A DNA stretch of 56,921 bases from assembly GCA_031287685.1 (NCBI GenBank), contig JAITSQ010000034.1, positions 1-56,921 on the forward strand. The letters run 5' to 3'. A program made the position numbers and the translations under genes. Below the pieces are notes generated by a model. It had not been told where the DNA came from. It searched no databases and saw only the letters and a program-made list of their open reading frames with translations. This document shows, in pieces, positions 12,397 through 56,921 of this stretch. The number at the start of each line of letters is the position of its first letter. Position 1 is the stretch's first letter. This DNA comes from Clostridiales bacterium. Its GTDB lineage: Bacteria > Bacillota > Clostridia > Lachnospirales > WQUN01.

Positions 12397-12431
12397 TTAA
12401 AGAAACTATTTTTTACTGAGGAGAAATTTGT

Positions 12432-15285: not shown

Positions 15286-15306
15286 CCGGAAAATTCCAAA
15301 AAACGC

Positions 15307-15335: not shown

Positions 15336-15352
15336 ATAGATGTTGCGTGAAA

Positions 15353-15439: not shown

Positions 15440-15495
15440 AGATTTTACTTAGGCGCCTCCTCCTAATTTATAAAATTATTTAGGGGGTTATTTGT

Positions 15496-16050: not shown

Positions 16051-16129
16051 TAATTTCCATATTTTTCCTGTAATGCCCCCGCCGCTTTGAGGAATAATAA
16101 GCGTATATTTATATTTGGGGGTATCGCAC

Positions 16130-41894: not shown

Positions 41895-41905
41895 GGGGTA
41901 TTCGT

Positions 41906-42196
41906 ATGGACAGACGGCAGGTGTTGTTGAAAAAACTGACAATTCTTGACTTTATGGCGACTGACATAGGGCTTTATCTTAACACGCACCCGGACGACTA
42001 CGCGTCCGTGCAAAAGTACAACGCGATTGTCGAGGAAGCCAAAGCGGCGCGGCGCGAGTATGAGGCGGCCGCGGGTCCGCTGACGTCTTGGCGGTGTCCC
42101 GTGAATAAAGAAATTTTCGAGGGGGACTGCTATTTCCCGTGGGAAAAGGAATTTAACTGCGGACTGACTGAAAAGCCGCCAAAGGAGGGCTTTTAA
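41906..42196 (+). CDS. cotJB: Spore coat protein CotJB
   Basis: CotJB is the second product of the coat operon and interacts with CotJC in known systems. The 96-residue product opens RRQVLLKKLTILDFMATDIGLYLNTHPDD, a strong CotJB signature, followed by YNAIVEEAKAARREYE, PLTSW and WPW-like DCYFPWEKEFNC. ATG 41906 is preceded by GGGGGTA. Its stop TAA shares a base with the ATG of cotJC, so translation is coupled. Confidence 0.93.
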   Translation: MDRRQVLLKKLTILDFMATDIGLYLNTHPDDYASVQKYNAIVEEAKAARREYEAAAGPLTSWRCPVNKEIFEGDCYFPWEKEFNCGLTEKPPKEGF

Positions 42197-42444
42197 TGTG
42201 GGTTTATGAGAAAAAGCTGGAGTATCCCGTGAAAATCAAGCGGTGCGACCCGAAGCTGGCTAAGGTGATTATTACGCAGTACGGAGGGCCGGACGGGGAA
42301 CTCGGCGCGGCGCTCCGCTACCTTTCGCAGCGGTTCACGATGATAACGCCGGAGGCCAAGGCCACGCTGAACGATATAGGCACCGAGGAATTAGAACCGA
42401 TAGGTTATCGATTAACAAAGGTTAAAACGCCTACGGGCTTTTAA
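42196..42444 (+). pseudogene. cotJC: 5' part of cotJC, interrupted by the mobile element
   Basis: CotJC is a manganese-catalase-like coat protein of about 190 residues. Here the frame has only 82. Residues 1-66 (MWVYEKKLEYPVKIKRCDPK to DIGTEEL) match the family closely. The family then continues AHLEMI, carrying metal ligands, whereas this frame reads EPIGYRLTKVKTPTGF and stops. Codon and base usage change at the same point. The simplest reading is that the integrative element beginning near 42391 entered cotJC, and the remaining two thirds lie beyond its right end, outside the window. The hybrid 82-residue product would lack most of the di-metal site. Confidence 0.85.
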
Positions 42445-42470
42445 CGGCACGACATAGCTGTACACTATGC

Positions 42471-42505
42471 AAGGCGGGGTTTATCCATTCCTCCCCCGCC
42501 TTTTT
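42471..42505 (+). terminator. Terminator at the left end of the element
   Basis: AAGGCGGGG (42471-42479) pairs with CCCCGCCTT (42494-42502) and runs into TTTTT. It would stop transcription entering from the cotJ operon before parA. Two more inverted repeats precede it: GTTAAAA/TTTTAAC (42421-42445) and CATAG/CTATG (42453-42469). Confidence 0.8.
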
Positions 42506-42561
42506 CGCGCCTATATATAAAGTAGGAAAGGAATGGAAAAATAAAAATCCGAAAGGAATGG
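42485..42561. promoter_or_regulatory. Iterated GGAATGG sites before parA
   Basis: GAAAGGAATGG occurs at 42526-42536 and again at 42551-42561, exactly 25 bases apart. An inverted CCATTCCT lies at 42485-42492 in the terminator loop. Iterated sites just before parA are often operators or centromere sites bound by ParA or ParB. The second copy also overlaps the ribosome-binding site. Confidence 0.45.
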
Positions 42562-42566
42562 TATCT

Positions 42567-43307
42567 ATGACAACATTAGCGTTTTACAACAACAAAGGCG
42601 GCGTGGGCAAGACCACGGCAACAATCAACATCGCATACGCGCTTGCCGAAATTGGCAAGCACATTTTAGTTATCGACTGCGACAGTCAGCGCAATACTTC
42701 ACGGTTTTTCGGCGGCGGCGAAGCGGCGGGCGTGATTGAGGGGATAATTGACCGCATAGCGGATAAATTTTCGGACGGGAGCCCCATATCACGAACGCGA
42801 TACCCGAACATTGACGTGATGTTACTTGACGATGTTCATATTCTCGAGGAGAAAACCGTTCGCGAGCTTTATGACTTCGCCGTGCTCGACCTGCCGCCCG
42901 CGATGAACGAATACACGAGCGATATATTACGCCTTTGCGACTTCGTACTCGTGCCGATTGAACTTGAAAGTTTTTCCATACAAGGCTTGTCGAACGTGTC
43001 CGAAACTCTGAGCGCGGTCGGCAAGCCGTTCTGTTGCTTTGTAAATAAATACAACAAAAGCGTAAAGGCGCACGAAGCTATGTTTACCCTCGCCCGCGAA
43101 AATTTGGGCGATATTCTGCTGAATACGCCGCTTCCCTACTCTCCCGCGATAATTAACAGCATAACCGCAGACAAGACCGTCGCGGAATATTGGCGGTTTT
43201 CGCCCGTGCTGTATTCGCTCGGCGGATTGGTCGAGGAAATCCTTCAAAATGTTGAGAAATTAGACAAATTAGACAAGTTTGACGAACTCGGAAAGGCGGT
43301 CGGTTGA
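42567..43307 (+). CDS. parA: ParA family partition ATPase
   Basis: ParA is a deviant-Walker ATPase that, with ParB, segregates or stabilises a replicon or excised element. The 246-residue product begins MTTLAFYNNKGGVGKTTATINIAYAL (P-loop residues 9-17). It has VIDCDSQRNTSRFF and the Walker B-like segment FAVLDLPPAMNEY, then VLVPIELESFSIQG. ATG 42567 is used because AAAGGA precedes it and the P-loop position fits the short ParA/Soj type without an N-terminal DNA-binding domain. It overlaps or abuts parB. Confidence 0.93.
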   Translation: MTTLAFYNNKGGVGKTTATINIAYALAEIGKHILVIDCDSQRNTSRFFGGGEAAGVIEGIIDRIADKFSDGSPISRTRYPNIDVMLLDDVHILEEKTVRELYDFAVLDLPPAMNEYTSDILRLCDFVLVPIELESFSIQGLSNVSETLSAVGKPFCCFVNKYNKSVKAHEAMFTLARENLGDILLNTPLPYSPAIINSITADKTVAEYWRFSPVLYSLGGLVEEILQNVEKLDKLDKFDELGKAVG

Positions 43308-43308
43308 T

Positions 43309-44757
43309 ATGGGCGCGTTTCAAGTGGGCGGCAACGCCTTTAACAGCTTCAAAAAAACACAGCAATCCGACGCGGCGGGGCGCGTTCAGATGATTGAAAT
43401 TGACAAACTTGTCCCGCACGAGGAAAATTTTTACAGTATGAACGATATAGAGCTTCTCGCGGAGGATATTGAACGACAGGGATTAAGGCATAATCTCGTT
43501 GTAACTCCGCTCGAAGGCGACAAGTACAAAATTATTTCTGGACACCGCAGATACAGGGCGGTTATTTTTTTGCGGGAGCAGGGGCGGTACCTTTCCGCCC
43601 TTGTCCCCTGCTCCGTGGGGACTATGAAAACAGACGACGAAGAAATGTTCGACCTCATAATGATGAACGCCACCGGGCGGGAGCTGACGGACGCGGAGCG
43701 CGTGAAGCAGTATGAACATTTGAAAAGGATACTGGAAGCGCGGAAAGCGGACGGTGAAAAATTCGGGCGTATAAGGGATAAAATAGCGGAAACGCTGAAT
43801 GTTTCTATCGGCCAAATATCAAAAATAGAACATATTGAGAATAACGCCGTGGAGGAAGTTAAGGAAGCCATTAACGCGGGAAGCCTTTCAATATCGACCG
43901 CAAATGAAATAGCGAAACTTGGCGCGGAAGAACAGCGAGAAATCCTTGAAAGTAAGCCTGCGCGAGAAATAAGCTATAAGGAAGCCAAGGCAAAGGTCTC
44001 CGGAGCCAAAGAAAAAAATGTGACACATGTGTCACAAAACTCCGGCGAGGATTCCAACGAAGCTGACAGCGAGAACGCCGCCATAACCGCCGCCGAGATT
44101 GACAACTTCCTCACGCGGCAATACAAACTTTACGACGTTAAATCCAACGTTGTGTCCTACTTTTCGGGCGAATTGAGCAACTCCAAACGCGCTGAATTTC
44201 TTAAAAAAGAAAAAGGATACAGCGGCGGCATTTATGAGGATTTTCCCGAGGGCTACTACAACTTTATTCCCGGAAAAGGGATAGAGCTATCAAAAAACCA
44301 TGGCAGAGCTGACAAAATTTTGGTTACGCTGACTTGGAGCGAAGCGGCGCGGCGGATTGGCAAGCTGATTGACGAGGGGCGGTATATGTCCTCCGCAGAG
44401 GATTCCGAAGCCCCGGACAAAGCCAAGGAAACGGCGGAGGGCGAAACGAAAACGCCAAGCGAAACAACAACTGGCGAAGCAACGGAAACTGACGACGCGG
44501 GCAACACCGAATCTGACGACACAGATAAAGCCGACATCTCGCCCTCCGCGCACGACGACGAGAGACACGAAACCTTGTCCGCGTGGCTCGGCTACGCGGT
44601 GCAGTCTTGCGAATCGTTAAACCTTTCATTTCAGCAAACCGAGGATTTTTTGTATTTTTTTAAGGAGTTTTTCCGCGAACAATCTTTCGAGGAAGCCGCG
44701 AAAACGTACAAAGAAAGCAAGTATTACGCGCAAAATCCGCAAGCCGAGCAATTATGA
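43309..44757 (+). CDS. parB: ParB/RepB/Spo0J family partition protein
   Basis: ParB proteins are CTP-dependent DNA clamps that load at parS. The 482-residue product has the ParB N-domain (IDKLVPHEENFYSM, LAEDIERQGLRHNLVVTPL, ISGHRRYRAVIFLRE) and the HTH region with ELTDAERVKQYEHLKRI and LNVSIGQISKIEHIEN. A long acidic, Thr/Ser-rich linker (about residues 360-410) leads to a C-terminal domain. ATG 43309 follows the parA stop directly. Inside the gene, TGTGACACATGTGTCACA (44019-44036) is a perfect 18-base palindrome encoding VTHVSQ, a candidate binding site. The stop overlaps the next gene (ATGA). Confidence 0.92.
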   Translation: MGAFQVGGNAFNSFKKTQQSDAAGRVQMIEIDKLVPHEENFYSMNDIELLAEDIERQGLRHNLVVTPLEGDKYKIISGHRRYRAVIFLREQGRYLSALVPCSVGTMKTDDEEMFDLIMMNATGRELTDAERVKQYEHLKRILEARKADGEKFGRIRDKIAETLNVSIGQISKIEHIENNAVEEVKEAINAGSLSISTANEIAKLGAEEQREILESKPAREISYKEAKAKVSGAKEKNVTHVSQNSGEDSNEADSENAAITAAEIDNFLTRQYKLYDVKSNVVSYFSGELSNSKRAEFLKKEKGYSGGIYEDFPEGYYNFIPGKGIELSKNHGRADKILVTLTWSEAARRIGKLIDEGRYMSSAEDSEAPDKAKETAEGETKTPSETTTGEATETDDAGNTESDDTDKADISPSAHDDERHETLSAWLGYAVQSCESLNLSFQQTEDFLYFFKEFFREQSFEEAAKTYKESKYYAQNPQAEQL

Positions 44758-45362
44758 CAAAGAAAGAGGCCGTGGCAAATATGTCTATCGGAGAACGAAT
44801 TGCCCTTGCGCTTGAACGTTCCGGCAAAAGCAAGGCGGATTTAGCCCGTTATTTAGCGACACGGTCCAGTACGGTGGAAAACTGGATTAAATGCGGCAGC
44901 GTTCCAGCCGCCACAGCAATAATGCCTATTTGCGAATTTACGGGAGTATCGCTTGAATGGATTTTGTCGGAAGATAATGAAACGGTGCAAACCCGGCAAA
45001 AAACCGCTGAAAATAAACCGTCGGTTGAGCGTTGCGGACGAAATCTTTCGCTGAAAATTGCTGAATTGCGTAAAAAACACAACGTAACATTATCTCAGTT
45101 AGGACGAGAATTAGGAATAAAACCTCAGTCGGTAAGCCTTTTGGAAAAGGGCGTAAACGCGCCAAGTTTTGAAACCTTAATCCTGCTTGCTGACTTTTTT
45201 GACGTATCAATCGACTGGCTTGTCGGGGAAGGCGGCGAAATTGACAAAAATGAGCGGCTTGTGCTGAAATCCGACGAACGCGAACTGCTTGCCGAATACA
45301 AACGGTTGGACGAAAAAAGCAAAGCGCGGGTTTCGGAACGAGTTAAGGTTTTGTTGGAATAG
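44754..45362 (+). CDS. Regulator with two XRE-type HTH domains
   Basis: The 202-residue protein carries two Cro/C1-type helix-turn-helix domains. The first covers residues 10-70 (SIGERIALALERSGKSKADLARYL, STVENWIKCGSVPAA, LEWILSED). The second covers about 96-158 (LSLKIAELRKKHNVTLSQLGRELGIKPQSVSLLEKG, SIDWLVGEGG). A C-terminal helix follows. Tandem XRE domains in one chain are uncommon and would allow binding to two half-sites. ATG 44754 overlaps the parB stop, so it is the third gene of the par operon and probably its regulator. Confidence 0.85.
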   Translation: MTKKEAVANMSIGERIALALERSGKSKADLARYLATRSSTVENWIKCGSVPAATAIMPICEFTGVSLEWILSEDNETVQTRQKTAENKPSVERCGRNLSLKIAELRKKHNVTLSQLGRELGIKPQSVSLLEKGVNAPSFETLILLADFFDVSIDWLVGEGGEIDKNERLVLKSDERELLAEYKRLDEKSKARVSERVKVLLE

Positions 45363-45411
45363 AGCGGCGAAAACGCTTGTTGAAGCCGTCCTATTGGGAG
45401 TGCGGTTTTTG

Positions 45412-45720
45412 ATGATAAAAAATGCTTCGGCGGGGAGGTGTGTTATTCTGAATATTGAAAATGAAAACGATATTTGCAACGACATCGGCGGAGTTCCGCA
45501 AAAACCGCAAGAATATCCAAAGTTCTTGTATGTGGTTGATTGCATGGACAAAACCGTCAGAATTATGGCGGGGTTTGCCGCCATTCTCACAGCGTTTTAT
45601 GTAACCGCCATATGCATTAGCGTGACAATCATTTTTATTCAATACTATATAATCCCAACTATAAATAATCCCGACTATATACTGCCTTTTCGAGAGAATC
45701 AGAGGTGTTCAATACGATAA
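45412..45720 (+). CDS. Small single-span membrane protein, hypothetical
   Basis: The 102-residue frame from ATG 45412 has a hydrophilic N-terminus (ICNDIGGVPQKPQEYPKFLYVV) and one long hydrophobic segment (IMAGFAAILTAFYVTAICISVTIIFIQ). A short tail ends FRENQRCSIR. GGGAG precedes the ATG at spacing 11. It overlaps the next HTH gene by 16 bases. I recognise no family. Small membrane proteins are common in conjugation regions, for example as entry-exclusion factors, but nothing here shows that. Start choice is uncertain. Confidence 0.5.
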   Translation: MIKNASAGRCVILNIENENDICNDIGGVPQKPQEYPKFLYVVDCMDKTVRIMAGFAAILTAFYVTAICISVTIIFIQYYIIPTINNPDYILPFRENQRCSIR

Positions 45721-45980
45721 AATGCAGGCTGAAATCATTGCAGACGGAACGAGGCTTTCTCAAAAAAGATGTCGCGGAAGCGGTCGGCATTTCAAGCGTT
45801 GCGTATTACCGATATGAAACTGGGGCACGGAAACCCGATATTGACACACTTATACGGTTATGCGCCTACTTCAATGTTTCATCGGATTATCTTTTAGGAT
45901 TATCTGACGAATCTAAGCCGCATTCGCCGGATTTGCAAGAACGCGCAAAAATGCTTTTGAATGAAAAACGAGAGGTGTAA
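45705..45980 (+). CDS. XRE family HTH regulator
   Basis: The 91-residue protein is a single Cro/C1-type HTH: IKCRLKSLQTERGFLKKDVAEAVGISSVAYYRYETGARKPDIDTLIRLCAYFNVSSDYLLGLS covers the whole domain, with a short C-terminal helix. GTG 45705 is preceded by CAGAG with poor spacing, so the start could be slightly different. It lies just before the VirB4 look-alike and the conjugation genes, and may repress them. Confidence 0.85.
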   Translation: MFNTIKCRLKSLQTERGFLKKDVAEAVGISSVAYYRYETGARKPDIDTLIRLCAYFNVSSDYLLGLSDESKPHSPDLQERAKMLLNEKREV

Positions 45981-45982
45981 AA

Positions 45983-46153
45983 ATGTCTGCCGGAGGAACT
46001 GAACCACGTGAAATAACGCCGGGGAGCGGAATGTCATTCAGCGCGAAGCTCGAAATTTGCAAAAAGTTTTTAGAATTGTCCGAGCAAGATGAATCCGTAA
46101 TTGTCATAGACCCGGAACGCGACTATGCCAATAAAAACAAAGAAAGTTGGTGA
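45983..46153 (+). CDS. 56-residue mini-protein resembling the VirB4 P-loop segment
   Basis: ATG 45983 is preceded by GAGAGGTG and the frame ends at TGA 46153, overlapping the next gene's upstream region. Residues 12-48 line up with residues about 491-523 of the VirB4 ATPase encoded 6 kb downstream: TPGSGMSFSAKLEI against SPGGGKSFFAKREI, then VIVIDPERDY against ILIIDPEREY, with a short insertion between. About 20 positions are identical. The Walker A lysine is replaced by Met17, so it should not bind ATP normally. It could be a decayed duplicate or a small protein that joins or poisons VirB4 hexamers. The good ribosome-binding site argues that it is translated. Confidence 0.65.
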   Translation: MSAGGTEPREITPGSGMSFSAKLEICKKFLELSEQDESVIVIDPERDYANKNKESW

Positions 46154-46160
46154 TTATTTT

Positions 46161-47585
46161 ATGAGTGATATGAACGGCGTTGACGACTTGGCAAGCGCGG
46201 CTGTGCGCAGTATTCAGCTTGCCCGTGAATTGCTGGAGCTTCTGCTGAAAACAGGGCAAATAGCGGCGGCGATAACCAAAGGGACCGCGCAAATCGGCGT
46301 TGGCGTTGTCGGGTTGGGCGTCGCGGCGGGCAAGGCGATTTACGACCACGCTTCGCCGACGGGGCGCGTTTTAGCCGAATCGCGGCGCACGGGACAGCCG
46401 ATAATTGAACAAAAAGCGATGCCAATTGACGCTATGGACAAATTAAAGCAAATGTGCGCGGAGCGCAATATTCCCGTGGCGTTCAAGACTGCCAAAAACT
46501 CAAAATTTGTAACGGCGATGTTCGCGGGCGGCGACAAAGATATTTTCAAGGACACGCTGACGGAACTGACGACCGACAGACTCAAAGCGAAACCGCAGGA
46601 TTTCGCTTTTTTTAATGTCAAGCCGGGCGCGGTTTCCGGGCTTAAAGGCTTGTGCGAACAAAACGGAATAGAAGTCAATTTTGTTCAAACGAGCAGTGAC
46701 AAAGTGGCCGTTGTTTATAAAATAAAAGACCAAGCCACCCTTGACATCATCAAAAATGATTTCAAAAAAGCCGCCGAAAATGTGTCAAAAGAGTTTGCTT
46801 TTGAGCATAAGCCGAATGGCAAATTTTCTTTCAGACAAGGCAATTCGTTATCAAAGGACGCGCCCGAATTTACGACGAAACGGCTTCCGACACGCGCCAA
46901 GCTCGAGCAAATTTTGCAAGATAGATTTGGCTATGACAGTGTGTCGTCAAAACTGGCGGCTGACAAATTCGCCAAAAGTTTGTCAGATGAACAACGGCGT
47001 TATTTCGGGCAGGACACACGGCAAGTCGAGCTTATAAAAAACCTTGACCGTGATATAAAATTGCCGGGCGACCCGATAACTCTGCGTGATTACAGCTTTA
47101 CGCGGCTGAGGTTCAGCGACGACGACGTTGACAGATTTAACGTGATGAACGACGGGGATAAGGCTGTGACACTCGCGCCGTCACAAATGACAAGAATGCA
47201 AATGGAAGATTTAGTCAAACAGCACTTCGGAGTGACCGACCCCGAAGTCGTCAAGCATATCTGCGACAAAACGGAAGCCTTGTCAAAAATGATGAGCGAA
47301 CAAAAACAGCGCGGATTTGTTGAAGTTGACAAAATTTCAAAAGACAAGGCGACCGCAGTTGTCGACGGCAAAAAACTTACGTTTTCACTCGCGCCGAGCG
47401 ACAAATTAAACTCAATACGGCGTATTTCAAAAGCCTTCGGTATACCGCTGAAAGACGCGCAAGCGGTTTTCAAAGCCGCCGAGAAACAAAGCGTTTTGGC
47501 AAATAAAATTAAACTTGCCGTCGAAAAAGTCAAAAACGCCGCGACGCCGATTAAAGACAAAAAGGCGAAAAAAGGCGCGATATGA
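46161..47585 (+). CDS. PcfB-like (DUF3801) conjugation accessory protein
   Basis: This 474-residue protein begins SDMNGVDDLASAAVRSIQLARELLELLLKTGQIAAAI. A Gly-rich stretch and the DUF3801/PcfB-type segments MDKLKQMCAERNIPVAFK with FVTAMFAGGDKDIFKDTL follow. A related fold may repeat at VSGLKGLCEQNGIEVNFVQ. The C-terminus is Lys-rich (KVKNAATPIKDKKAKKG). PcfB-type genes lie directly before the coupling protein gene in pCF10-like systems, as here, and help the relaxosome dock. It is longer than PcfB, so the C-terminal half is unassigned. ATG 46161 is preceded by GGTGATT. Confidence 0.65.
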   Translation: MSDMNGVDDLASAAVRSIQLARELLELLLKTGQIAAAITKGTAQIGVGVVGLGVAAGKAIYDHASPTGRVLAESRRTGQPIIEQKAMPIDAMDKLKQMCAERNIPVAFKTAKNSKFVTAMFAGGDKDIFKDTLTELTTDRLKAKPQDFAFFNVKPGAVSGLKGLCEQNGIEVNFVQTSSDKVAVVYKIKDQATLDIIKNDFKKAAENVSKEFAFEHKPNGKFSFRQGNSLSKDAPEFTTKRLPTRAKLEQILQDRFGYDSVSSKLAADKFAKSLSDEQRRYFGQDTRQVELIKNLDRDIKLPGDPITLRDYSFTRLRFSDDDVDRFNVMNDGDKAVTLAPSQMTRMQMEDLVKQHFGVTDPEVVKHICDKTEALSKMMSEQKQRGFVEVDKISKDKATAVVDGKKLTFSLAPSDKLNSIRRISKAFGIPLKDAQAVFKAAEKQSVLANKIKLAVEKVKNAATPIKDKKAKKGAI

Positions 47586-47598
47586 AAGGCGTGATTTG

Positions 47599-49665
47599 TT
47601 GGCAAAGATGAAGAAAAAAACGGGCGCGGCGGGGTATGTAGTCTATGGTTTACTGATTGTCGCCGCGCTTTATTTCGCGGCGGCGCTCGGAACCGCCGCT
47701 GATTTGTCAAAAGGCGAGGAGGGAAAAATTGATTTTGATAAAATTGACATTGAAGCCGCCTTGAAAGAGCCTAAACTGGTGTTTTCAGAGTGGACTCGCA
47801 AGAAAAGCACCGCCGGGCAATTCGCGTTTTTTACCGCGTTTGGCATTGGCATTTACGCTCTTGTCAAAATCACGGATAAAAAAGCCTGTCACCGCAGATT
47901 CGAGGAGCACGGCTCGGCGAGGTGGGGGACAAAAGGCGAAGCGAAAAAACTGCTTGACAAAGATAAATCTTGCAATATAATTTTGACAAATGATGTGAAA
48001 ATGTCGCTGAACACCCGGATGCACCGGGAAAACTTGAATATTCTTGTCATAGGCGGCGCGGGAAGCGGTAAATCACTGTTTTTTGCCAAACCCAATATTA
48101 TGCAGATGAACACATCAGTTGTCGCGACCGACCCGAAAGGCGAACTGCTGTCCTCGACGGGGAAAATGCTCGAAAAAAACGGCTATAAAGTGCGGGTTTT
48201 CAACCTTATCGATATGAAGCACAGTCATAATTATAACCCGTTTAATTATGTTTATGATGAAAAAATGGCAGATGAGGAAATCGTGAAAACGCTAAACCCC
48301 GCAAGCGTAATTAAAATGGTCAATGTGTTTATGAAAAACACAAAAGACAAAAACGCGACGGGCGGCGACCAGTTTTGGGACGACGCGACGAGGAGCCTTT
48401 TGTCCGCGTTGTCATTTTATTTGCTCGAAACCGAGCCGGAAAGGGCAAATTTCGGCAAGGTGACGGAGCTTTTGAAACTTGCCAAAGTAAGCGAGGACGC
48501 GGAAGTGAAGTCCGAGCTTGACGAACTTTTTGACGAGTTGGAGGAAAATGACAAGTCGTCGCTGGCAGTCTCGTATTACAAAGATTTCAAAATGGCGGCG
48601 GGCGACACCATGAAATCCATTTTGATTTCTTGCGCGGCGCGGCTTCAATTTTTCAATTTGCCCGAAGTTAAGGATTTGACACATACTGACAATTTGGAAC
48701 TTGACAAATTAGGCGACACGAAAAACGCTTTATTTGTCATAATTCCCGCAAGCGACAGAACTTTTAACTTTCTCGCGGCGATGATGTACACGCAGATGTT
48801 TGACTGCTTGTATAACCGCGCTAATTTCGTCCACGGCGGACGGCTTAAAGTCCACGCCCGGTGCATACTTGACGAGTTCGCCAATATCGGTCAAATTCCG
48901 GATTTTGACAGCCTTATAACGACAATGCGAAGTATGGAAATTTCCGCGAATGTCATTATACAAAATTTGGCGCAATTAAAGGCGATGTACAAGGACACTT
49001 GGGAGTCAATTGTCGGCAATTGCGACAGCTTGTTGTTTCTCGGCGGACAGGAGGAAAGCACGTTAAAACTGCTGTCCGAGAAACTCGGCAAGGAAACAAT
49101 TGACATAAAAAGCCGTAATCGGACAAGAGGCATGAAAAACAATTCCTCCTCCGAAAACAATAGTATTTCCGGGCGTGAGCTTATGACAATTGACGAAATT
49201 TCAACGATGCCAATGAGCGATTGCTTGTTATTCATCCGCGCGTATCACCCGTTTTACGGCAAGAAGTTTGACACTTTCAAGCACGAGAGTTATGAACTTT
49301 CAGGCGATTTTGACAAGTCAAATATTTACAGCGTAGAGGAAATAGCGACCGCCAAAACGCCGCCGGAGGAGGACGGCGCGAATAAAGTCGAGGCGGAATT
49401 GCCGGTAGTTGACCCGGATATTAAAGCCGTGATTGAAAACCTTGCCGAGCTGAAAAAGAATACGGGCGCGGAATTTACAACCGAATTGCCGGACGAAGCC
49501 GACGATATTGTCGAAGTTGACGAAAGCGGTTTTGACGGCTCGGAGGGCGGGTTAGTCAATGAATTTGACAGAGAGGAGGAACCTGCCGAAGATGAAAAGT
49601 TGTCATATGTGTCAACTGAAAGTCCGGCAGAAGCCGATGACGACCTTGAAAGCCAATATATTTAA
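47599..49665 (+). CDS. VirD4/TraG-type coupling protein
   Basis: This ATPase couples the relaxase-DNA complex to the conjugative secretion channel. The 688-residue product has two N-terminal membrane segments (YVVYGLLIVAALYFAAALG and FAFFTAFGIGIYALV). Walker A GGAGSGKSLFFAKPNI lies near 152, ATDPKGELLSSTGKML follows, and Walker B is ARCILDEFANIGQIPDF (near 421). An acidic C-terminal tail ends the protein. TTG 47599 is chosen for its AAAGG at good spacing; ATG 47608 is also possible. It follows the PcfB-like gene by 13 bases. Confidence 0.92.
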   Translation: MAKMKKKTGAAGYVVYGLLIVAALYFAAALGTAADLSKGEEGKIDFDKIDIEAALKEPKLVFSEWTRKKSTAGQFAFFTAFGIGIYALVKITDKKACHRRFEEHGSARWGTKGEAKKLLDKDKSCNIILTNDVKMSLNTRMHRENLNILVIGGAGSGKSLFFAKPNIMQMNTSVVATDPKGELLSSTGKMLEKNGYKVRVFNLIDMKHSHNYNPFNYVYDEKMADEEIVKTLNPASVIKMVNVFMKNTKDKNATGGDQFWDDATRSLLSALSFYLLETEPERANFGKVTELLKLAKVSEDAEVKSELDELFDELEENDKSSLAVSYYKDFKMAAGDTMKSILISCAARLQFFNLPEVKDLTHTDNLELDKLGDTKNALFVIIPASDRTFNFLAAMMYTQMFDCLYNRANFVHGGRLKVHARCILDEFANIGQIPDFDSLITTMRSMEISANVIIQNLAQLKAMYKDTWESIVGNCDSLLFLGGQEESTLKLLSEKLGKETIDIKSRNRTRGMKNNSSSENNSISGRELMTIDEISTMPMSDCLLFIRAYHPFYGKKFDTFKHESYELSGDFDKSNIYSVEEIATAKTPPEEDGANKVEAELPVVDPDIKAVIENLAELKKNTGAEFTTELPDEADDIVEVDESGFDGSEGGLVNEFDREEEPAEDEKLSYVSTESPAEADDDLESQYI

Positions 49666-49685
49666 CAAAAATGAAGGTGGTGCTT

Positions 49686-49886: not shown

Positions 49887-49958
49887 AAAGCTGCCGCGTA
49901 TGGCGTGGCGACGAAAAAATAACAACAAATACAAAAATTATATAAGGGAGAGATTTTT

Positions 49959-50300: not shown

Positions 50301-50315
50301 AAAGAAGGTGTTCAA

Positions 50316-51152: not shown

Positions 51153-51214
51153 CTTTATTTTCAGAAAAGCAGTCATTTATTGGGCTGTCTTTTTTACAAA
51201 GCATATAAAAACTC

Positions 51215-51244
51215 TTGACATTTCGCTATCGTATATGCTATCAT
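51215..51244 (+). promoter_or_regulatory. Toxin-antitoxin promoter with inverted repeats
   Basis: TTGACA (51215-51220) and TATCAT (51239-51244) are 18 bases apart. The start region contains CTATCGTATATGCTATCAT and ATGAGATAG, giving repeated CTATC and TCATATGA inverted elements that could be the operator for the antitoxin-toxin complex. Confidence 0.6.
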
Positions 51245-51263
51245 ATGAGATAGAGGTGTTCCT

Positions 51264-51521
51264 ATGAAAATAAGCAAGCGGAAACAACCCATAAAATACC
51301 TCAAGGCGGCAGACAAAAACACCCGCGTCAAACTCAACAAAGCGATTGACGGGCTTTTGGAATGGAGAGGGGATATTGTCAAGATAAAAGGTACTGATAT
51401 GTTTAGACTAAAAATTGGCCATTATCGAATAGGATTCAAGGTTGACGCGCAAAATGGCATAATATCCGTAGAAATAGTATTGCCGCGCGGAGAATTTTAT
51501 AAAAATGCCGAGAGGAAATGA
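51264..51521 (+). CDS. RelE/ParE family toxin
   Basis: The 85-residue protein has the compact RelE/ParE fold pattern: KYLKAADKNTRVKLNKAIDGLLEWRGDIVKIKG, then MFRLKIGHYRIGFKVDAQNGIISVEIVLPRGEFYKN. The RLKIGHYRIGF strand pair is the hallmark. RelE-type members cleave ribosome-bound mRNA and ParE-type members inhibit gyrase; the sequence does not settle which. ATG 51264 is preceded by AGAGGTG. It is the first gene of a two-gene unit with its own promoter within the conjugation cluster. Confidence 0.85.
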   Translation: MKISKRKQPIKYLKAADKNTRVKLNKAIDGLLEWRGDIVKIKGTDMFRLKIGHYRIGFKVDAQNGIISVEIVLPRGEFYKNAERK

Positions 51522-51524
51522 CGT

Positions 51525-51752
51525 ATGACGCAAACTGAATTTCTGAAAAAAATGGAAGAAACGCCGGAAGCCGAGCCTGATGAATATGATTTTACATTGC
51601 TTAAAATGGCAAAGCTACAAGACAAAACCGAGAAAAGCGGGAAAATAGTTCTTAGGCTCCCGAAATCCCTCCACAGCGAATTGGCTGACGAAGCAAAACG
51701 CGAGGGCATAAGCCTAAATCAATATTGTCTTTACAGACTCGCGAGGAAATGA
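51525..51752 (+). CDS. Antitoxin with ribbon-helix-helix (Arc/HicB-like) C-terminus
   Basis: The 75-residue protein has an acidic N-terminal half (EETPEAEPDEYDF) that should bind the toxin. The C-terminal SGKIVLRLPKSLHSELADEAKREGISLNQYCLYRLARK is the ribbon-helix-helix pattern also found at HicB C-termini. It begins three bases after the toxin stop, and GAGGAAATGACG gives the ribosome-binding site. Toxin-first order is the reverse of the usual one but is known for RelE/HigB types. Confidence 0.85.
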   Translation: MTQTEFLKKMEETPEAEPDEYDFTLLKMAKLQDKTEKSGKIVLRLPKSLHSELADEAKREGISLNQYCLYRLARK

Positions 51753-51763
51753 GATTAAGCCGT

Positions 51764-51780
51764 CCGCCAGGGCGGTTTTT
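51764..51780 (+). terminator. Short terminator after the RelE-type pair
   Basis: CCGCC-AG-GGCGG followed by TTTTTG (51764-51781). The stem is only five pairs with a tight loop, so it may be partial, allowing some read-through from the conjugation operon into prgI. Confidence 0.5.
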
Positions 51781-51813
51781 GTTTGCGAAAAATTCAAGAA
51801 AGGAGTGATAGCT

Positions 51814-52254
51814 TTGCTTGAAATAAAAATACCGAAAGAAATAGAGGATTACGAACCGAAACTCGCTTGGGGGCTGACGACGAAAAACATCATTTCCGTC
51901 GCGGTGATTGCGATTACAGCGATTCCTTTGTATGTTTTTGGCAGACAATACTTGAGCGCTGACGAACTGCAATGGATTATAATGCTCATTGTCGCGCCCA
52001 TCGCGGCGTTGGGCTTCTTTCCGAAGTGGAACGGGATCAAGCTCGAAAGCCTTTTGAAAAACTGGTGGAACATGAATTGGAACCCGCAAAGGCGCAGATA
52101 CGGCGAGATTTCGGTGTTTTGGCTTGCCCGCGCCGAGATTATAGAAGACGATTTGAACATTCAGCGAGTGCAAGCGAGGATTGACAAAAAATCAGCCAAA
52201 CTCGCTAAAAAGAACGTTAAAAAGTCAAAGAAAACTCAAAAGACAAAAAAATAA
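51814..52254 (+). CDS. PrgI family conjugation membrane protein
   Basis: The 146-residue protein begins MLEIKIPKEIEDYEPKLAWGLTTKN. Two membrane segments (IISVAVIAITAIPLYVFG and WIIMLIVAPIAALGFF) follow, then KWNGIKLESLLKNWWNMNWNPQRRRY and a Lys-rich tail. This order matches PrgI, the VirB3-like partner always found next to VirB4 in Gram-positive systems. TTG 51814 has AAAGGAG at good spacing, whereas GTG 51805 does not. Confidence 0.85.
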   Translation: MLEIKIPKEIEDYEPKLAWGLTTKNIISVAVIAITAIPLYVFGRQYLSADELQWIIMLIVAPIAALGFFPKWNGIKLESLLKNWWNMNWNPQRRRYGEISVFWLARAEIIEDDLNIQRVQARIDKKSAKLAKKNVKKSKKTQKTKK

Positions 52255-52271
52255 GAACGGGGGAATTTAAC

Positions 52272-54743
52272 TTGAAAAAAGAAGAAATTGAAGTTGTAAC
52301 CGAGAAAACCAAAGTATCAACCGCGACGGAAAAAGACCGTAAACGCCTTGCCAAAATTGACGACAAAAAGCGTGTGCAGGCGCAGAAAGACCGCGAGCGC
52401 ATCGTCAAAAAAGCCGCCAAGCCCAAGAGTAAGCTGCAAAAGAAATTCAGCGGCGGCAAGCGCAAAGTGGCAAAAACGGTGCAGGAAACTATGCCTTACA
52501 TCAAGGTTTGCGACAATTTTATTTTTCAAGTTGACAAAGAAAAATACAGTAAGACTTACATTTTTGACGATATAAATTATACCTCCGCCGACACGGACGA
52601 GGAGGAGCGTATAATGCTTGCTTACGGGGCTTTGCTCAAAGGATTTGACAGCACTTTTGACATACAAATAACAATTCACAATAACCGAATTAACGAGAAA
52701 AGTTTTCGTGAGCGCGTGTTTATCAAGCCGTCAAACGACGGCTATGACAAATACCGCAACGAGTACAATGGTATGCTCAAAAGTCAAGTGGTTGACGAGC
52801 AAAACGGCGGCAAGGGCATAATCTGCCGGAAATATCTGACAATCACGGCAAACGCAATCAGCGTCGAAACGGCGCGGCAAAAATTCAAGTCCGCTGAAAC
52901 GCATATAAGAATGGCGTTTCAGAAAATCGGAACTCGCGTCGAGACGCTGAACGCCAACGAGCGCGTCCGGATTTTGGCGGATATTTTTCGCGGCGCTGAC
53001 AAGGAAATTTTTGAGATTTCCGAGAGCGAATTTTTGCGCAGGGCTGAAAAAAATTTGTGCTGTCCCGATTATTTTGAGTTTCGGAATGACTATTTTATGT
53101 ATGACGACAAATATGCCCGCGCTATTTTTGTTCGGCAGCTGCCCGCGTCTATGAGCGATTTAATTTTGACGGAAATTCAAAGCACAAATTTGGAACTTGT
53201 GTTATCGCTGAATATCGCGCCTGTGGAGCCGGAGGAAGCTATTAAAAAAGTGGGACGGCAAATAACGTCAATTAAACAGGAGCGATTGGCAAAAGAGAAA
53301 AAAGCGTCCGAACGCGGCATTTTCAGCGATGTTTTAAGTGACGAATTGAAGCGCAGCTTGTCCGAAGCGGAGGAGCTTTTGAGCGATTTGCAATCAAAAG
53401 ACCAAAAAATGCTGCTTGTCAATATTGTCGTTATGGTCGTCGCCGAGAATTACGAGGAATTGGAATTAAACAGCGAAAAAGTGTATGGCGTTTTCCGAAA
53501 ATATATGTGCACGGCGGGCGCGGCGTTCCTCAATCAAGAGGAATGTATGGCTTCGGCTCTGCCCTTGGGCAATTGCCGCCTGTCCGTCCGGAGGACGCTG
53601 ACGACCGAGTCAACCATTGCGTTTATGCCGTTTAACGCTACGGAAATGTCGCAGGACAAAGGTGTTTATTACGGGCTGAATCAAACGACGGGCAATTTAA
53701 TTTTGTTCAACAGAAAAAGTTTGATTAACCCAAACGGCTTTATATTGGGCAGTCCGGGCGGCGGCAAGTCATTTTTCGCGAAGCGAGAAATAGTCAATGT
53801 GTTTTTGTCAACTGACGACGAAATTCTGATTATTGACCCCGAACGCGAGTATACAAAGCTCGGCAAAGCCCTTGGCGGCGAGGTTATTTACATTTCCGAA
53901 AACGCGCTCACTCATTTTAATCCGCTTGAAATTGTCGTCACCGACGACGACACGGACGACCCGATACGCTCAAAATACAATTTTTTCTTGTCGTTTTTTG
54001 AAACAATTATGGGCGGCGAGGTTTCGCCGGAGCAAAAGACAATTATTGACAACTGTTTGCACAAAGTTTACGCCGAATTTATGGCGGGGACGGCTCCGAT
54101 GCCGACCCTTGAAGATTACTATAACGTGCTGACGGAACACCCCGACCCCGGCGCGAAAACGCTCTATACCTCGCTTGACCTCTATGTTCACGGTTCGATG
54201 AACGTGTTCAGCCACGCTTCAAATGTGAACGCGGACAACAGAATTGTCATTTATGACATAAAGGATTTGGGCAAGCAGTTAAAGCCGCTTGGAATGATGA
54301 TTGTCCTTGAAAATTTGTGGGGCAAAATTGTCAAAAATCGTCAGCGCGGCAAAAACACGTGGATTTACATTGACGAAATTTATTTGCTTTTCCGAAGCGA
54401 GGAAAACGCCAACTTTTTGTATGAATTATACAAACGGGCGCGGAAATGGGGCGGCGTACCGACCGGAATTACGCAGAATGTCGAGGATTTATTGCGGAGC
54501 GAAACCGCGCGGGCAATGTTGTCAAATACCGAGTTTGTCGTTATGCTTCGACAAGCCGCCAGCGACCGGGAGGAGTTGGCGCGGCTGCTCAAAATCCCCG
54601 AGGCGATTATGGAATTTGTGGTGGGAAGCCCGGCGGGAAGCGGTTTGCTGTACGCGGGCGGGTACGGTTGTATACCGTTTCGGGATTATTTCCCGAAAAA
54701 TACCGAGTTATATAAGCTGATGACGACAAAGTTCGGGGAATAA
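52272..54743 (+). CDS. VirB4/TraE-type conjugation ATPase
   Basis: This is the conserved ATPase of the secretion channel. The 823-residue product has a Lys-rich N-terminus, a VirB4 N-domain (CRKYLTITANAISVETARQKF, ARAIFVRQLP) and the ATPase core. Walker A GSPGGGKSFFAKREI lies near 494, DDEILIIDPEREYTKLGKAL follows, and Walker B is TWIYIDEIYLLF (near 697). The C-terminus SGLLYAGGYGCIPFRDYFPKN is typical. TTG 52272 is preceded by GGGGGAA. The P-loop region is the source or relative of the mini-protein at 45983. A palindromic repeat begins right after the stop. Confidence 0.95.
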   Translation: MKKEEIEVVTEKTKVSTATEKDRKRLAKIDDKKRVQAQKDRERIVKKAAKPKSKLQKKFSGGKRKVAKTVQETMPYIKVCDNFIFQVDKEKYSKTYIFDDINYTSADTDEEERIMLAYGALLKGFDSTFDIQITIHNNRINEKSFRERVFIKPSNDGYDKYRNEYNGMLKSQVVDEQNGGKGIICRKYLTITANAISVETARQKFKSAETHIRMAFQKIGTRVETLNANERVRILADIFRGADKEIFEISESEFLRRAEKNLCCPDYFEFRNDYFMYDDKYARAIFVRQLPASMSDLILTEIQSTNLELVLSLNIAPVEPEEAIKKVGRQITSIKQERLAKEKKASERGIFSDVLSDELKRSLSEAEELLSDLQSKDQKMLLVNIVVMVVAENYEELELNSEKVYGVFRKYMCTAGAAFLNQEECMASALPLGNCRLSVRRTLTTESTIAFMPFNATEMSQDKGVYYGLNQTTGNLILFNRKSLINPNGFILGSPGGGKSFFAKREIVNVFLSTDDEILIIDPEREYTKLGKALGGEVIYISENALTHFNPLEIVVTDDDTDDPIRSKYNFFLSFFETIMGGEVSPEQKTIIDNCLHKVYAEFMAGTAPMPTLEDYYNVLTEHPDPGAKTLYTSLDLYVHGSMNVFSHASNVNADNRIVIYDIKDLGKQLKPLGMMIVLENLWGKIVKNRQRGKNTWIYIDEIYLLFRSEENANFLYELYKRARKWGGVPTGITQNVEDLLRSETARAMLSNTEFVVMLRQAASDREELARLLKIPEAIMEFVVGSPAGSGLLYAGGYGCIPFRDYFPKNTELYKLMTTKFGE

Positions 54744-54807
54744 TTTGAGCTTGCTCGGTGTTTGGGTTTGTCTAAAAAAATTTAGACAAACCCAAGCCCC
54801 CTCCTTG
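54744..54807. repeat. Modular palindromic repeat inside the mobile element
   Basis: A perfect 15-bp stem TTGGGTTTGTCTAAA (54762-54776) and TTTAGACAAACCCAA (54781-54795) sits between GCTCGGTG on the left and GCCCCCTCCTTG on the right. Read on the reverse strand it has the family arms GGGGGCTT and CACCGAGC. It is the only unit in the element part and begins directly after the virB4 stop. Confidence 0.8.
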
Positions 54808-54833
54808 ATAAAACGCGGCGAGTGTGGTATAAT
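54805..54833 (+). promoter_or_regulatory. Promoter of the PIN toxin-antitoxin unit
   Basis: TTGATA (54805-54810) and TATAAT (54828-54833) are separated by 17 bases. The -35 starts within the last bases of the repeat, so insertion of the repeat may have formed or altered this promoter. Confidence 0.75.
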
Positions 54834-54857
54834 GTGTTTGAAAGCGAGGAATTTGCC

Positions 54858-55334
54858 ATGAGAACGCCAAAAATTTACATTGAAACGTCGGTTTTCAATT
54901 TTTACTTCGCCGACGACGCGCCGGACAAGCGAGAGGATACAATAAAATTGTTCGAGGAGATACGGCAAGGGAAGTATGAGCCGTATACATCTCTTTTTGC
55001 TATTAAAGAATTGCAAGACGCCGAAGAACCTAAGCGGAGCCAAATGCTTGACCTCGTTACGCGATATGGTGTTGCCACACTGCTCGGCAATGATGAAACG
55101 CAGCTATTAGCGGATATCTACGTCACCGAAGGCATTATACCTTTGAAGTATCTTACAGACGCGCTCCATATCGCGGCGGCAACGGTAAGCTATTTAGATT
55201 ATGTTGTAAGTTACAATTTTAGGCACATAGTTAAGCTGAAAACTATCGCTATGACTGAAATAGTTAACTTGCGGGAACATTACAAAAAAATAGGAATACT
55301 TTCTCCAACGGAGGTGATTGAAGATGTTGAATGA
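54858..55334 (+). CDS. PIN-domain ribonuclease, VapC-like toxin
   Basis: The 158-residue protein starts KIYIETSVFNFYFADD, where the first acidic residue of the PIN site is Glu. It contains YTSLFAIKELQDAEEP, and LKYLTDALHIAAATVSYLDYVVSYNFRHI, with the conserved acidic residue in TDALH. PIN toxins cleave RNA. ATG 54858 is chosen because AGGAATTT precedes it and the promoter at 54805-54833 starts transcription after the longer frame's start. It overlaps the small downstream gene by 11 bases, as in toxin-antitoxin operons. Confidence 0.8.
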   Translation: MRTPKIYIETSVFNFYFADDAPDKREDTIKLFEEIRQGKYEPYTSLFAIKELQDAEEPKRSQMLDLVTRYGVATLLGNDETQLLADIYVTEGIIPLKYLTDALHIAAATVSYLDYVVSYNFRHIVKLKTIAMTEIVNLREHYKKIGILSPTEVIEDVE

Positions 55335-55509
55335 ACCGAAAGCAATGAGAGAAATTCACTCAATACGCGTGGAAATCTACGAAAAAATTAAAGACATGTC
55401 GCCAGAGGAGCGTACAGCGTATTTCATTGAATCCACGAAAGAAACAGTTGACAAGTATGGAATCAAAGTTGAAACGCCGCGATCAGCCGTCGCTTTTGCG
55501 AGGCGGTGA
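55324..55509 (+). CDS. Putative antitoxin paired with the PIN protein
   Basis: The 61-residue protein begins MLNEPKAMREIHSIRVEIYEKIKDMSPEERTAYFIESTKETVDKYG and ends AVAFARR. It has a short hydrophilic start and helical core. Similar short proteins accompany PIN toxins in Bacillota. ATG 55324 has GGAGGTGATT upstream and overlaps the toxin stop. The antitoxin role is inferred from context; I do not see an obvious DNA-binding motif. A strong terminator follows. Confidence 0.7.
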   Translation: MLNEPKAMREIHSIRVEIYEKIKDMSPEERTAYFIESTKETVDKYGIKVETPRSAVAFARR

Positions 55510-55542
55510 TTGAAAAGTTATATAACCTTAAATTAACCGCGA

Positions 55543-55569
55543 GGAACGCGCTTACCGCGTTCCTTTTTA
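55543..55569 (+). terminator. Rho-independent terminator after the PIN pair
   Basis: GGAACGCG (55543-55550) and CGCGTTCC (55556-55563) form a perfect stem with a five-base loop, followed by TTTTTATTT. Confidence 0.9.
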
Positions 55570-55586
55570 TTTACAGAGGTGATGGA

Positions 55587-56921
55587 ATGTCAAAGCCGCG
55601 TTTTAACGCAAACAGCCTAAAAATAACAAGCACAGGCTCACCGACGCTCCAAAAAATGTTGTCGCCGGAAGCCGCGAAACATTTAAGTTACTCATTTTCG
55701 CGGAAAAGACTTGAAACAGCGTTACAGCCCGAAAACCGAGCCGCGCAAGGCACCTTATCTGAGCAGGAGCAACGAGGAAAAGCTGCCAAACGCAAATTGA
55801 TACAGCTTTACCGGACGGCGGGGGATGTTCGGGAAAACGCCGACAAATACGCCCGTCGAGCCCTCGGAGAGGGCGGCGGGAGCGGCGGCAAACAAAAATT
55901 AGACCTTTTGCGAGACGAACGCAAAACAGGCAACGCGTCACTTGGTTCGGACGGCTTCGAGGTTCTGAAAACAACGGTGACAAACATCAGAATAACGCCC
56001 AAGAAACCTGCTAAACCCGCAAAAATTAAGCCGAAAGCGCGGTTGAATCGGCAATTATCGCGGGAGCTTTCGCGAAAAAGATTCCGATTGAAAAGCCTAA
56101 AAAGGGGAATCTCGCTTAACATAGTCAAAACAACCATCGCGAAGCGCGATAAATCTCTGCGGACAAACGGCGGATTTGTGCGGAAACTGAAAATAACAAG
56201 GTATAGCAAGCGGCTTAAAAATGGCAAAAAATACGCCGGCAAAAGGCATATACTGTGGCGGAGTTTGACAACGCGATTTCAGCGGCGAAAATTTCAACGG
56301 CGAAGAACGATTGAAAAATTTGTCAATAAAAAACGCAAGCGGGATTTAACAAAAATAGCCGCGCGGGAGGCCGTCCAAGCGGGCGCGAGCGGGCTTTTCG
56401 CTCAAACGGGCAAAAATTTTAACGATATGCCGGAATCGCACGACGACGGCACGGGAAGTATGCAAACTCTGCGTTCGGCGAAAGAATTTTATAACAACGC
56501 GCAGAGCAAAATTGACGTGACCAAGGTTGTTTATGGGGACGTTAAACAAACCTCAATTGACGCGAAAAACGCCGCGCAAAAAGTCAATGATTTCAGCCAA
56601 AAGTTGTTCAAGAGAACGGATTTAGGACTTAAAACCCGCGTAAATCGCTCATTGACAAAAAGGAAGGTAAGAACAGTCAAGACTGTCAATGTCAAAAAGT
56701 CATATCAAACCCGCCAATACGTCGCAAAAACGCAAAAAGCGGCGGAAAAGGCTAAGTACGCCGCCGCAAAAGCTGCGGAAACAATACGCAAAATAGCCCT
56801 TGCCGCCAAATCAGCGGCGGCGGCGCCCGCCGTAATGGTCGGGGCGCTTGTAATCGTGCTTCTTTGCGTGGTCGTCGCGTCCGCAAACGCCTTGTTCAGC
56901 GGAAATCAGACTACTGTAATC
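55587..56921 (+). CDS. N-terminal part of a conjugation cell-wall hydrolase-type protein (runs off window)
   Basis: An uninterrupted frame runs from ATG 55587 (AGAGGTG upstream) to the last base, 445 codons without a stop. The N-terminal 400 residues are extremely basic, with many Lys/Arg clusters (KRFRLKSLKRGISL, RRKFQRRRTIEKF). An Ala/Lys-rich helix (EKAKYAAAKAAETIRKIALAAKSAAAA) and one membrane segment (VMVGALVIVLLCVVVASA) follow near the window edge. In related elements a protein with this layout, placed after virB4, continues into extracellular lysozyme and NlpC/P60 or CHAP domains that open the wall for DNA transfer. Those domains would be beyond the window, so the product name is inferred from layout. 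Confidence 0.75.
   Translation, partial: MSKPRFNANSLKITSTGSPTLQKMLSPEAAKHLSYSFSRKRLETALQPENRAAQGTLSEQEQRGKAAKRKLIQLYRTAGDVRENADKYARRALGEGGGSGGKQKLDLLRDERKTGNASLGSDGFEVLKTTVTNIRITPKKPAKPAKIKPKARLNRQLSRELSRKRFRLKSLKRGISLNIVKTTIAKRDKSLRTNGGFVRKLKITRYSKRLKNGKKYAGKRHILWRSLTTRFQRRKFQRRRTIEKFVNKKRKRDLTKIAAREAVQAGASGLFAQTGKNFNDMPESHDDGTGSMQTLRSAKEFYNNAQSKIDVTKVVYGDVKQTSIDAKNAAQKVNDFSQKLFKRTDLGLKTRVNRSLTKRKVRTVKTVNVKKSYQTRQYVAKTQKAAEKAKYAAAKAAETIRKIALAAKSAAAAPAVMVGALVIVLLCVVVASANALFSGNQTTVI

Follow-up and report, generated by a model that had tools for sequence, protein, structure and literature searches.

The stretch of DNA analysed here (hereafter, the window) is a whole contig of 56,921 nucleotides (C5; JAITSQ010000034.1) from the genome of a Clostridiales bacterium (GCA_031287685.1). 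It carries three adjacent spore coat genes on the + strand. The genes cotJA (41658..41894; PF11007, E 4e-13) and cotJB (41906..42196; PF12652, E 7.7e-16) are intact, whereas cotJC, which starts at 42196, matches the Mn_catalase family only over residues 1-66 (42196..42393; PF05067, E 2.2e-21). Its frame then runs into 16 unrelated, element-encoded residues and stops at 42444. An earlier note had proposed that a conjugative element is inserted in cotJC and could be excised precisely during sporulation, and had predicted that the missing 3' part, a site-specific recombinase gene and a short direct repeat would be found. In a profile search of the genome, the missing 3' half was located on the minus strand of a second contig, C18 (C18:69331-69702; PF05067 positions 62-198, E 1.6e-31), directly behind a serine recombinase gene (PF00239 and PF07508). 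Both joints share the 14-nt core TAGGCACCGAGGAA (42377..42390, + strand in the window), and rejoining there restores a full-length CotJC in frame. The last 12 nt of this core occur once on the + strand of C5 and once on the strand read of the C18 stretch, the other strands not having been searched. Thus, the checkable predictions of the note came out positive, except that the 3' part reads AHLEII instead of the predicted AHLEMI. The end of the window is only the contig end. No third PF05067 match was found in the genome.

The left 14.5 kb of the element (42391..56921) differ in composition from the host sequence on C5, with 46% GC as compared with 57% left of the joint. The C18 part of the element has 47% GC and the host flank read on C18 has 52%, so the contrast is smaller there. 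Downstream of the joint we found, all on the + strand, genes for a ParA-type ATPase (42585..43307, start codon not settled; PF13614, E 1.3e-28), a ParB-type protein (43279..44757; PF02195, E 1.5e-6), a helix-turn-helix regulator (44754..45362; PF01381, E 1.9e-20), a VirD4/TraG coupling protein (47515..49665, start codon not settled; PF02534, E 2.1e-68), a TrbL/VirB6-type membrane protein (50316..51152; PF04610, E 6.4e-8), a PrgI-family protein (51805..52254; PF12666, E 9.5e-18) and a VirB4-type ATPase (52272..54743; PF19044, E 1.6e-18). The last gene (55506..56921) encodes the N-terminal part of an NlpC/P60 protein; this part has no Pfam match, but the remainder on C18 does (PF00877, E 1.7e-7). 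The element goes on in C18 from 95785 down to about 69700, that is for 26.1 kb to the other joint. The two contig ends share a 15-nt overlap with one mismatch, detected by visual inspection, and one continuous frame spans the joint in three relatives. The element therefore appears complete, as an integrative and conjugative element (ICE) of about 40.6 kb, and it also encodes a relaxase (Mob_Pre, E 2.4e-20).

As the genome is in 37 contigs and the element is broken across two of them, we considered whether the split could result from an assembly or binning artefact. We regard this as very unlikely, since the gene halves complement each other exactly at the shared core, the contig ends overlap in frame, and relatives carry the same protein unbroken. 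In addition, split genes were also found in genomes represented by one contig (genomes G062, G184, G240, G257 and G331 of our set) or two contigs (G202).

The host encodes Spo0A (C-terminal domain at 973..1284, + strand; PF08769, E 6.7e-47), SpoIIID, and sigma F, E, G and K, and its sigK is one open frame.

cotJC is a recurrent insertion target

To determine whether this insertion is an isolated case, we examined cotJC across the order. At least 60 of 233 cotJC-bearing genomes contain it only in pieces, broken at recurrent sites on metal-ligand motifs, with up to three insertions per gene and elements that span 1.6-53 kb. This count is a lower bound, because the 69 genomes inspected in detail were selected for weak or multiple matches. 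In contrast, no listed match of the neighbouring cotJB is split. Of 80 relatives of the recombinase that were kept, 53 lie at broken cotJC, 7 at an asparagine synthase gene and 6 at a SleL-like gene, while 14 have no assigned target; these labels cluster on the recombinase tree. Joins between pieces were required to be in frame by construction, and 17 of 38 cores are only 4-5 nt long. Seven joins (labelled G344 A, G257 D, G331 C, G062 B, G053 B, G346 B and G127 B) do not read like the family at the joint, indicating that the true core was not found there. We also searched for a site-B-like core behind phage integrases. It was found once, in a Paenibacillus phage stretch (L282), 17 nt behind the integrase gene, but not in a Dorea phage stretch (L283). 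Of 33 viral contigs without a cotJC piece only one (L231) showed GARGAR within 200 nt, although many of these contigs end right after the gene.

Split cotJC remains under purifying selection, with pN<pS in 81 of 81 pairs, although these pairs share members and are not independent. The signal was also observed where recombinase and gene seem to have diverged together, for instance in the genome pair G240/G290 (omega 0.026), and omega was low at dS of about 0.7-1.4 with recombinases of similar dS. However, some insertions are recent (pairs L132/L133, with a recombinase dS of 0.033 against 0.551 for cotJC, and L171/L176), so part of the selection signal predates them. Of 34 cases with both end pieces, 33 cover 190 of 190 profile columns without a stop, and in two genomes with three insertions in one gene (G053 and G249) the pieces all stay open. 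These data make it very improbable that cotJC is a dead gene that looks intact only because the insertion is young, even if, without a second copy or expression data, this cannot be excluded for this single genome.

The recombinase and a candidate directionality factor

At E <= 1e-5, the only PDB matches of the recombinase are the SPbeta integrase YokA, alone and fused to YotN (E 2.5e-47, similar over residues 10-517), which probably correspond to SprA and SprB. The best NCBIfam match is XisF (NF041201, E 2.2e-24), but its 86.2 bits are far below the curated cut-off of 375.

A gene of 65 codons that ends just before the recombinase gene is a candidate for the directionality factor. Its family was found in 56 of 86 clade-I loci and in 1 of 23 others, although the search was seeded with the gene of this genome and membership is thus partly by construction. 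Of four members, one had weak Pfam hits (best E 0.057), and PHROGs gave at best E 0.0046. PDB profile hits to NADH dehydrogenase cover 25 residues at E 7e-4 and were judged spurious. An AlphaFold model of one member (pLDDT 83, pTM 0.40) gave nothing in Foldseek at E <= 0.001; the SPbeta RDF chain 9dxd_D appears only at rank 14 (E 9.6), which is no evidence of a relationship.

We next searched for sporulation-type promoters, with start codons picked by a simple ribosome-site rule. Upstream of the recombinase genes, sigma-E and sigma-K consensus patterns were not enriched (two E patterns in 6 and 5 of 76 loci against 3.1 and 3.0 shuffled, maximum 8; K 0 against 1.2). Upstream of the candidate factor, six patterns were tried in 89 distinct regions. 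The loose two-box sigma-E pattern was not enriched (8 against 7.2 shuffled), and counts for the others were 5 against 1.7 (maximum 5) for strict two-box sigma-E, 42 against 11.4 (maximum 18) for CATA-N2/3-AT, 4 against 0.9 (maximum 5) for sigma-K, 1 against 0.5 for sigma-A, and 18 against 8.7 (maximum 15) for a SpoIIID-like pattern. The latter was present in 14 of 53 genome loci (5.5 shuffled, maximum 12) and in 5 of 36 viral ones (4.7). A mother-cell-type -10 element (CATA) at -42 to -19 was found in 59 of 89 regions (shuffled mean 10.1, maximum 20), although this interval was chosen after the positions had been seen. The element was strongly enriched before the candidate factor (32 of 53, shuffled maximum 12), only marginally before recombinases (18 of 80, maximum 17) and not before other genes (31 of 200, maximum 34). 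Notably, it is not in its place in this genome, whose candidate-factor gene has GATATTATACT where the nearest relative has CATATGCTGTAT, so its control is unknown.

Discussion

We propose that an ICE of about 40.6 kb is integrated by its own SprA-type large serine recombinase at a fixed site in cotJC, on the codons of the Glu-x-x-His metal-ligand motif. In this model, which we consider likely, a small directionality factor, possibly the 65-aa candidate, turns the recombinase to excision in the mother cell, and cotJC, which is probably a mother-cell gene, is rebuilt in a cell that will die while the spore keeps the element. The same site, with related recombinases, is used by predicted phages and by small elements in other Clostridia, and other recombinase clades use two or three further sites in the same gene. 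Selection on split cotJC, its recurrence in the order, the match to the SPbeta integrase and the promoter motif before the candidate factor in relatives favour such a skin-like switch, although no excised form or empty site was seen for this genome. Moreover, the B. subtilis CotJC mutant is reported as without apparent defect (PMC12122855).

Alternatively, the ICE might use cotJC only as a conserved, dispensable landing site, with excision occurring for transfer or by stress and rejoining of cotJC as a by-product. Many diverse large serine recombinases share single conserved target genes, such as a magnesium chelatase/protease and a prolyl isomerase gene (PMC10083194), and both the recent transfers and the lack of the CATA element at its place in this genome would fit this view. 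Nevertheless, we consider it unlikely given the low omega in pairs with similarly diverged recombinases, the complete open frames, the genes with three insertions and the enrichment of a sporulation-type -10 element before the candidate factor.

In the literature consulted, skin-like switches are described for seven genes (sigK, spsM, spoVFB, spoVR, gerE, yabG and kamA). The SPbeta prophage of B. subtilis, with integrase SprA (YokA) and RDF SprB (YotN), is also inserted by a large serine recombinase in the coding sequence of a sporulation gene, spsM (PMC4191935), but there the carrier is a phage, the target differs, and we could show no similarity between our candidate factor and SprB. The skin elements of B. 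subtilis and C. difficile split the mother-cell gene sigK and also carry a serine recombinase. In C. difficile the RDF is under sigma-E and SpoIIID (PMC5025042), as the CATA motif suggests here for relatives, and in B. subtilis the RDF gene skr overlaps the start of the recombinase gene (PMC6957869), as here the candidate ends just before it. These elements are prophage-like, and we found no report of several elements in one sigK in the parts read. Other intervening elements include gin in gerE of B. cereus, which carries no phage genes and is 28.6 kb, vfbin in spoVFB, vrin in spoVR, yin in yabG and phi3T in kamA (PMC5595907; PMC4191935; PMC10747680; PMC6957869). In the parts read, none is reported as an ICE, none is in cotJC and none shows several elements in one gene, and related ICEs with distinct recombination units were stated not to have been found in databases (PMC6957869). 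Heterocyst excision elements such as the fdxN element, with XisF, belong to another phylum and other genes. Finally, phage phi027 of C. difficile lies next to a CotJC-like gene, cotG/ORF1465, but this 678-bp gene is downstream of attR and is described as a bacterial gene, not as split (PMC11222575; PMC12122855).

Here, one spore coat gene is in pieces in about a quarter of the sampled genomes that carry it in one order, cut by several recombinase clades, with one carrier shown to have the genes of a conjugative element. The recombinases with natural cores are also a set of site-specific integrases. These observations make it possible to ask why mobile DNA gathers in mother-cell genes, whether such insertions are neutral parking or regulation, and how several excisions are co-ordinated in one cell. 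A broader reading, which we consider somewhat more probable than not, is that cotJC is a gene with removable DNA intervening sequences across an order of Clostridia. In this view, distinct recombinase clades keep largely to one site each, the main sites sit on the codons of the dimanganese ligands, one gene may hold three elements at once, and carriers range from a recombinase plus one small gene (1.6 kb) through predicted phages to a 40-kb ICE, all of which must be removed in the mother cell to make the enzyme. Conjugative elements and phages would thereby share a niche, namely a gene needed only in a cell that will die.

Anatomy of the split cotJC locus

Contig C5 (56,921 b) belongs to a 1.88-Mb genome assembled in 37 contigs and 97% complete. 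On this contig, cotJA, cotJB, and the first 66 codons of cotJC stand in order at 41658–42393, after which the cotJC frame runs 16 residues into foreign DNA. A genome-wide search with the Mn-catalase family returned only two matches, namely this 5′ piece and a 3′ piece located on a second contig, C18, at 69331–69702 on the minus strand. On C18, the 3′ piece is immediately preceded by a large serine recombinase gene, whose stop codon lies in the attachment core. Both joints share TAGGCACCGAGGAA, and when the two pieces are joined there, the gene encodes a full-length CotJC (126 and 202 bits for the parts, and 330 bits for the whole). A further serine recombinase, together with the cut end of another, was found near the start of C18 (1–1571), outside this element.

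C5 and C18 end in the same gene. By visual inspection, their ends overlap by 15 nt with one mismatch and stay in frame. To examine this joint, we searched with a peptide spanning it and found matches to single unbroken frames, at 28–38% identity, in 3 of the 37 other genomes of the family that were searched (G001, G017, and G011), whereas the other 34 had no match. We therefore take the element to be complete, with a size of about 40.6 kb (14,543 + 26,086 − 15). It encodes ParA, ParB, VirD4, TrbL, PrgI, and VirB4, as well as NlpC/P60, a topoisomerase, a 2,503-aa helicase-domain protein, a Mob_Pre relaxase, and a DUF3991/Toprim protein, which identifies it as an ICE. By eye, two small gene pairs at 51264–51752 and 54822–55509 on C5 look like toxin–antitoxin modules, although the one protein tested (54822–55331) has no Pfam match. 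The GC content of the element is 46–47%, as compared to 57% left of the joint on C5 and 52% in the host flank read on C18. The circular form would carry the core between inverted half-sites GATAACCT and AGGTTATC, an arrangement that was also seen behind the integrase in viral contigs such as L215.

Regarding the host, Spo0A (encoded on C5), SpoIIID, and sigma F, E, G, and K are encoded in the genome. SigF and SigK score below their equivalog cut-offs (TIGR02885 and TIGR02846) but over those of their subfamily models. The sigK gene is one open frame matching positions 20–226 of 227.

cotJC is found in pieces in many genomes of the order

In the family, 17 of 38 genomes have the gene. Of these, seven have a 5′ and a 3′ piece only, three more are partial or at a contig edge (G026, G030, and G024), six are intact, and one (G006) is a single frame with a gap. 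In a sample of the order, 233 of 392 genomes have a match. We looked more closely at 69 genomes selected for weak or multiple matches, and found that 53 have a 5′ and a 3′ piece and no full copy, one has a full copy, and 15 are partial. With the seven genomes of the family, this makes at least 60 of 233. In 56 of the 60, the pieces leave no gap over 20 profile positions, whereas in G127, G215, G216, and G298 a middle part is not matched. In addition, genomes G115 (contig C3) and G215 (contig C70) show several C-terminal-like Mn-catalase pieces (114–196) in a row on one contig, which may be paralogues or reflect repeated breakage.

The breaks fall on the PF05067 profile at about 30–35 (site A), 60–70 (site B), about 150 (site C) and, rarely, 94–114 (site D). 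Judged by match ends, the patterns among the 53 genomes are B in 16, A in 15, C in 9, A+B+C in 6, and others in 7. Five of the genomes (G062, G184, G240, G257, and G331) consist of one contig and another (G202) of two, so fragmentation of assemblies does not explain the splits. As a control, we examined cotJB of the same operon, which matches in 219 of 385 genomes, and every match in the part of these that we examined spans its short profile of 76 positions. From alignment to solved Mn catalases we infer that sites A, B, and C lie on the ligand motifs Glu35, Glu66-x-x-His69, and Glu148, respectively, assuming that this ligand numbering holds.

Content of the elements and grouping of their recombinases

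Of 38 joints examined, 21 have a shared core of 6 nt or more and 17 have a core of only 4–5 nt. Seven of the joins are not family-like, and the core there is unknown. All 19 elements that were recovered whole on one contig contain a serine-recombinase frame. Their sizes run from 1,591 to 16,487 b, and match coordinates give about 24, 37, and 53 kb for the elements of G331, G240, and G062, respectively. The cargo of the small elements varies. Recombinase frames of only 278–344 aa that lack the C-terminal part recur in small elements (loci L082, L083, L089, L091, L095, and L113), and these are possibly reduced to excision or decaying. In genome G099, contigs C104, C34, and C45 (loci L111, L112, and L113) begin or end within a few bases of cotJC joints, as expected if integrated and excised forms coexist in the sequenced population, or from other assembly branching.

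The recombinases group by site, with a clade of 14 at B, one of 10 at A, a second B clade of three, a C clade, and a small clade with two A rows and the D row. In this grouping, the rows labelled G053_Cq and G249_Cq sit by coordinates on the B side of their piece, and G249_Bq sits inside the C element.

We next searched for relatives of the recombinase of this ICE among 84,980 species genomes. Out of 141 relatives found, the best 80 were kept (45–62% identity). Of these, 53 have a cotJC piece broken at site B in the fetched flank, seven lie at an asparagine synthase gene, six lie at a LysM-GH18, SleL-like gene, and 14 are unassigned. The asparagine synthase gene (L155, L165, L183, L192, L194, L196, and L202) is broken near its GECADE/IFGGYPW stretch. 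In the case of the LysM-GH18 (SleL/YaaH-like) gene (L151, L180, L195, L197, L198, and L208), the adjoining pieces that were scanned (L151, L180, and L198) stop within the GH18 domain. On a quick tree, the cotJC label needs 8 changes, against 24.7 for shuffled labels (0 of 500 as low), and the other two targets lie among cotJC rows. Of 67 viral contigs with such an integrase, 16 carry a cotJC piece broken at site B and one carries an asparagine synthase piece. The Paenibacillus phage phiIBB_Pl23 has a site-B-like core 17 nt behind its integrase gene, whereas a Dorea phage has none. The only solved structures matched at E ≤ 1e-5 are the SPbeta integrase YokA, alone and fused to YotN (E 2.5e-47).

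Selection on split cotJC

Among 81 pairs of split cotJC whose recombinases are at least 60% identical, pN < pS in all 81, with a highest ratio of 0.48, although the pairs share members and are not independent. In some pairs the element came recently, as in loci L132/L133 (dS of 0.033 for the recombinase and 0.551 for cotJC). In others, gene and recombinase have similar dS, as if they had diverged together while split. These include G240/G290 (1.40 and 1.85, omega 0.026), L188/L206 (0.94 and 0.87, omega 0.096), and L158/L172 (0.68 and 0.85, omega 0.22). Out of 81 genomes or loci, both end pieces were available for 34. Of these, 33 cover all 190 profile columns with open frames, and the other (G127) covers 172.

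A candidate directionality factor and its upstream region

A family of roughly 60-aa proteins, seeded with the gene before this recombinase and with one in G202, occurs in the fetched stretch of 56 of 86 clade-I loci and 1 of 23 others, and in that of 43 of 67 viral contigs. In this genome, it is the 65-aa gene ending a few bases before the recombinase gene (5500–5303, minus strand, of the fetched stretch L005). In locus L130 (1616–5461), two near-identical cassettes of candidate factor plus recombinase face each other on one contig.

Upstream of these genes, CATA occurs at −42 to −19 in 59 of 89 distinct regions (shuffled mean 10.1, maximum 20 in 200 shuffles), although this range was set after seeing the positions. 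CATA-N2/3-AT within 130 nt occurs in 32 of 53 genome loci (shuffled 7.8, maximum 12) and in 10 of 36 viral ones (3.9, maximum 11), against 18 of 80 before recombinases (10.7, maximum 17, a marginal excess) and 31 of 200 before other genes (23.3, maximum 34). GGACAA or GTACAA often stands 14–17 nt before CATA. This resembles the C. difficile skin RDF promoter under sigma-E and SpoIIID (PMC5025042), CATA being presumably the −10 of these sigma factors and GGACAA probably a SpoIIID-type box. In contrast, this genome has GATATTATACT at that place, where its nearest relative L130 has CATATGCTGTAT, and the protein is not shown to be a directionality factor.

Proposed mechanism and relation to previous work

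In the literature examined, which included no preprints and lacked most subscription papers, we found no split cotJC and no natural ICE as a sporulation intervening element, although the LSR survey PMC10083194 may list such targets in its supplement.

Integration at attB in cotJC by the recombinase is well supported by the anatomy of the locus. The main alternative is that cotJC is a landing site with incidental rejoining, which we consider unlikely but possible. By analogy with SPbeta/spsM and skin, and by the selection and promoter evidence, the most likely working, which we regard as probable, is excision by the recombinase plus a directionality factor in the mother cell, rebuilding cotJC while the spore keeps the element.
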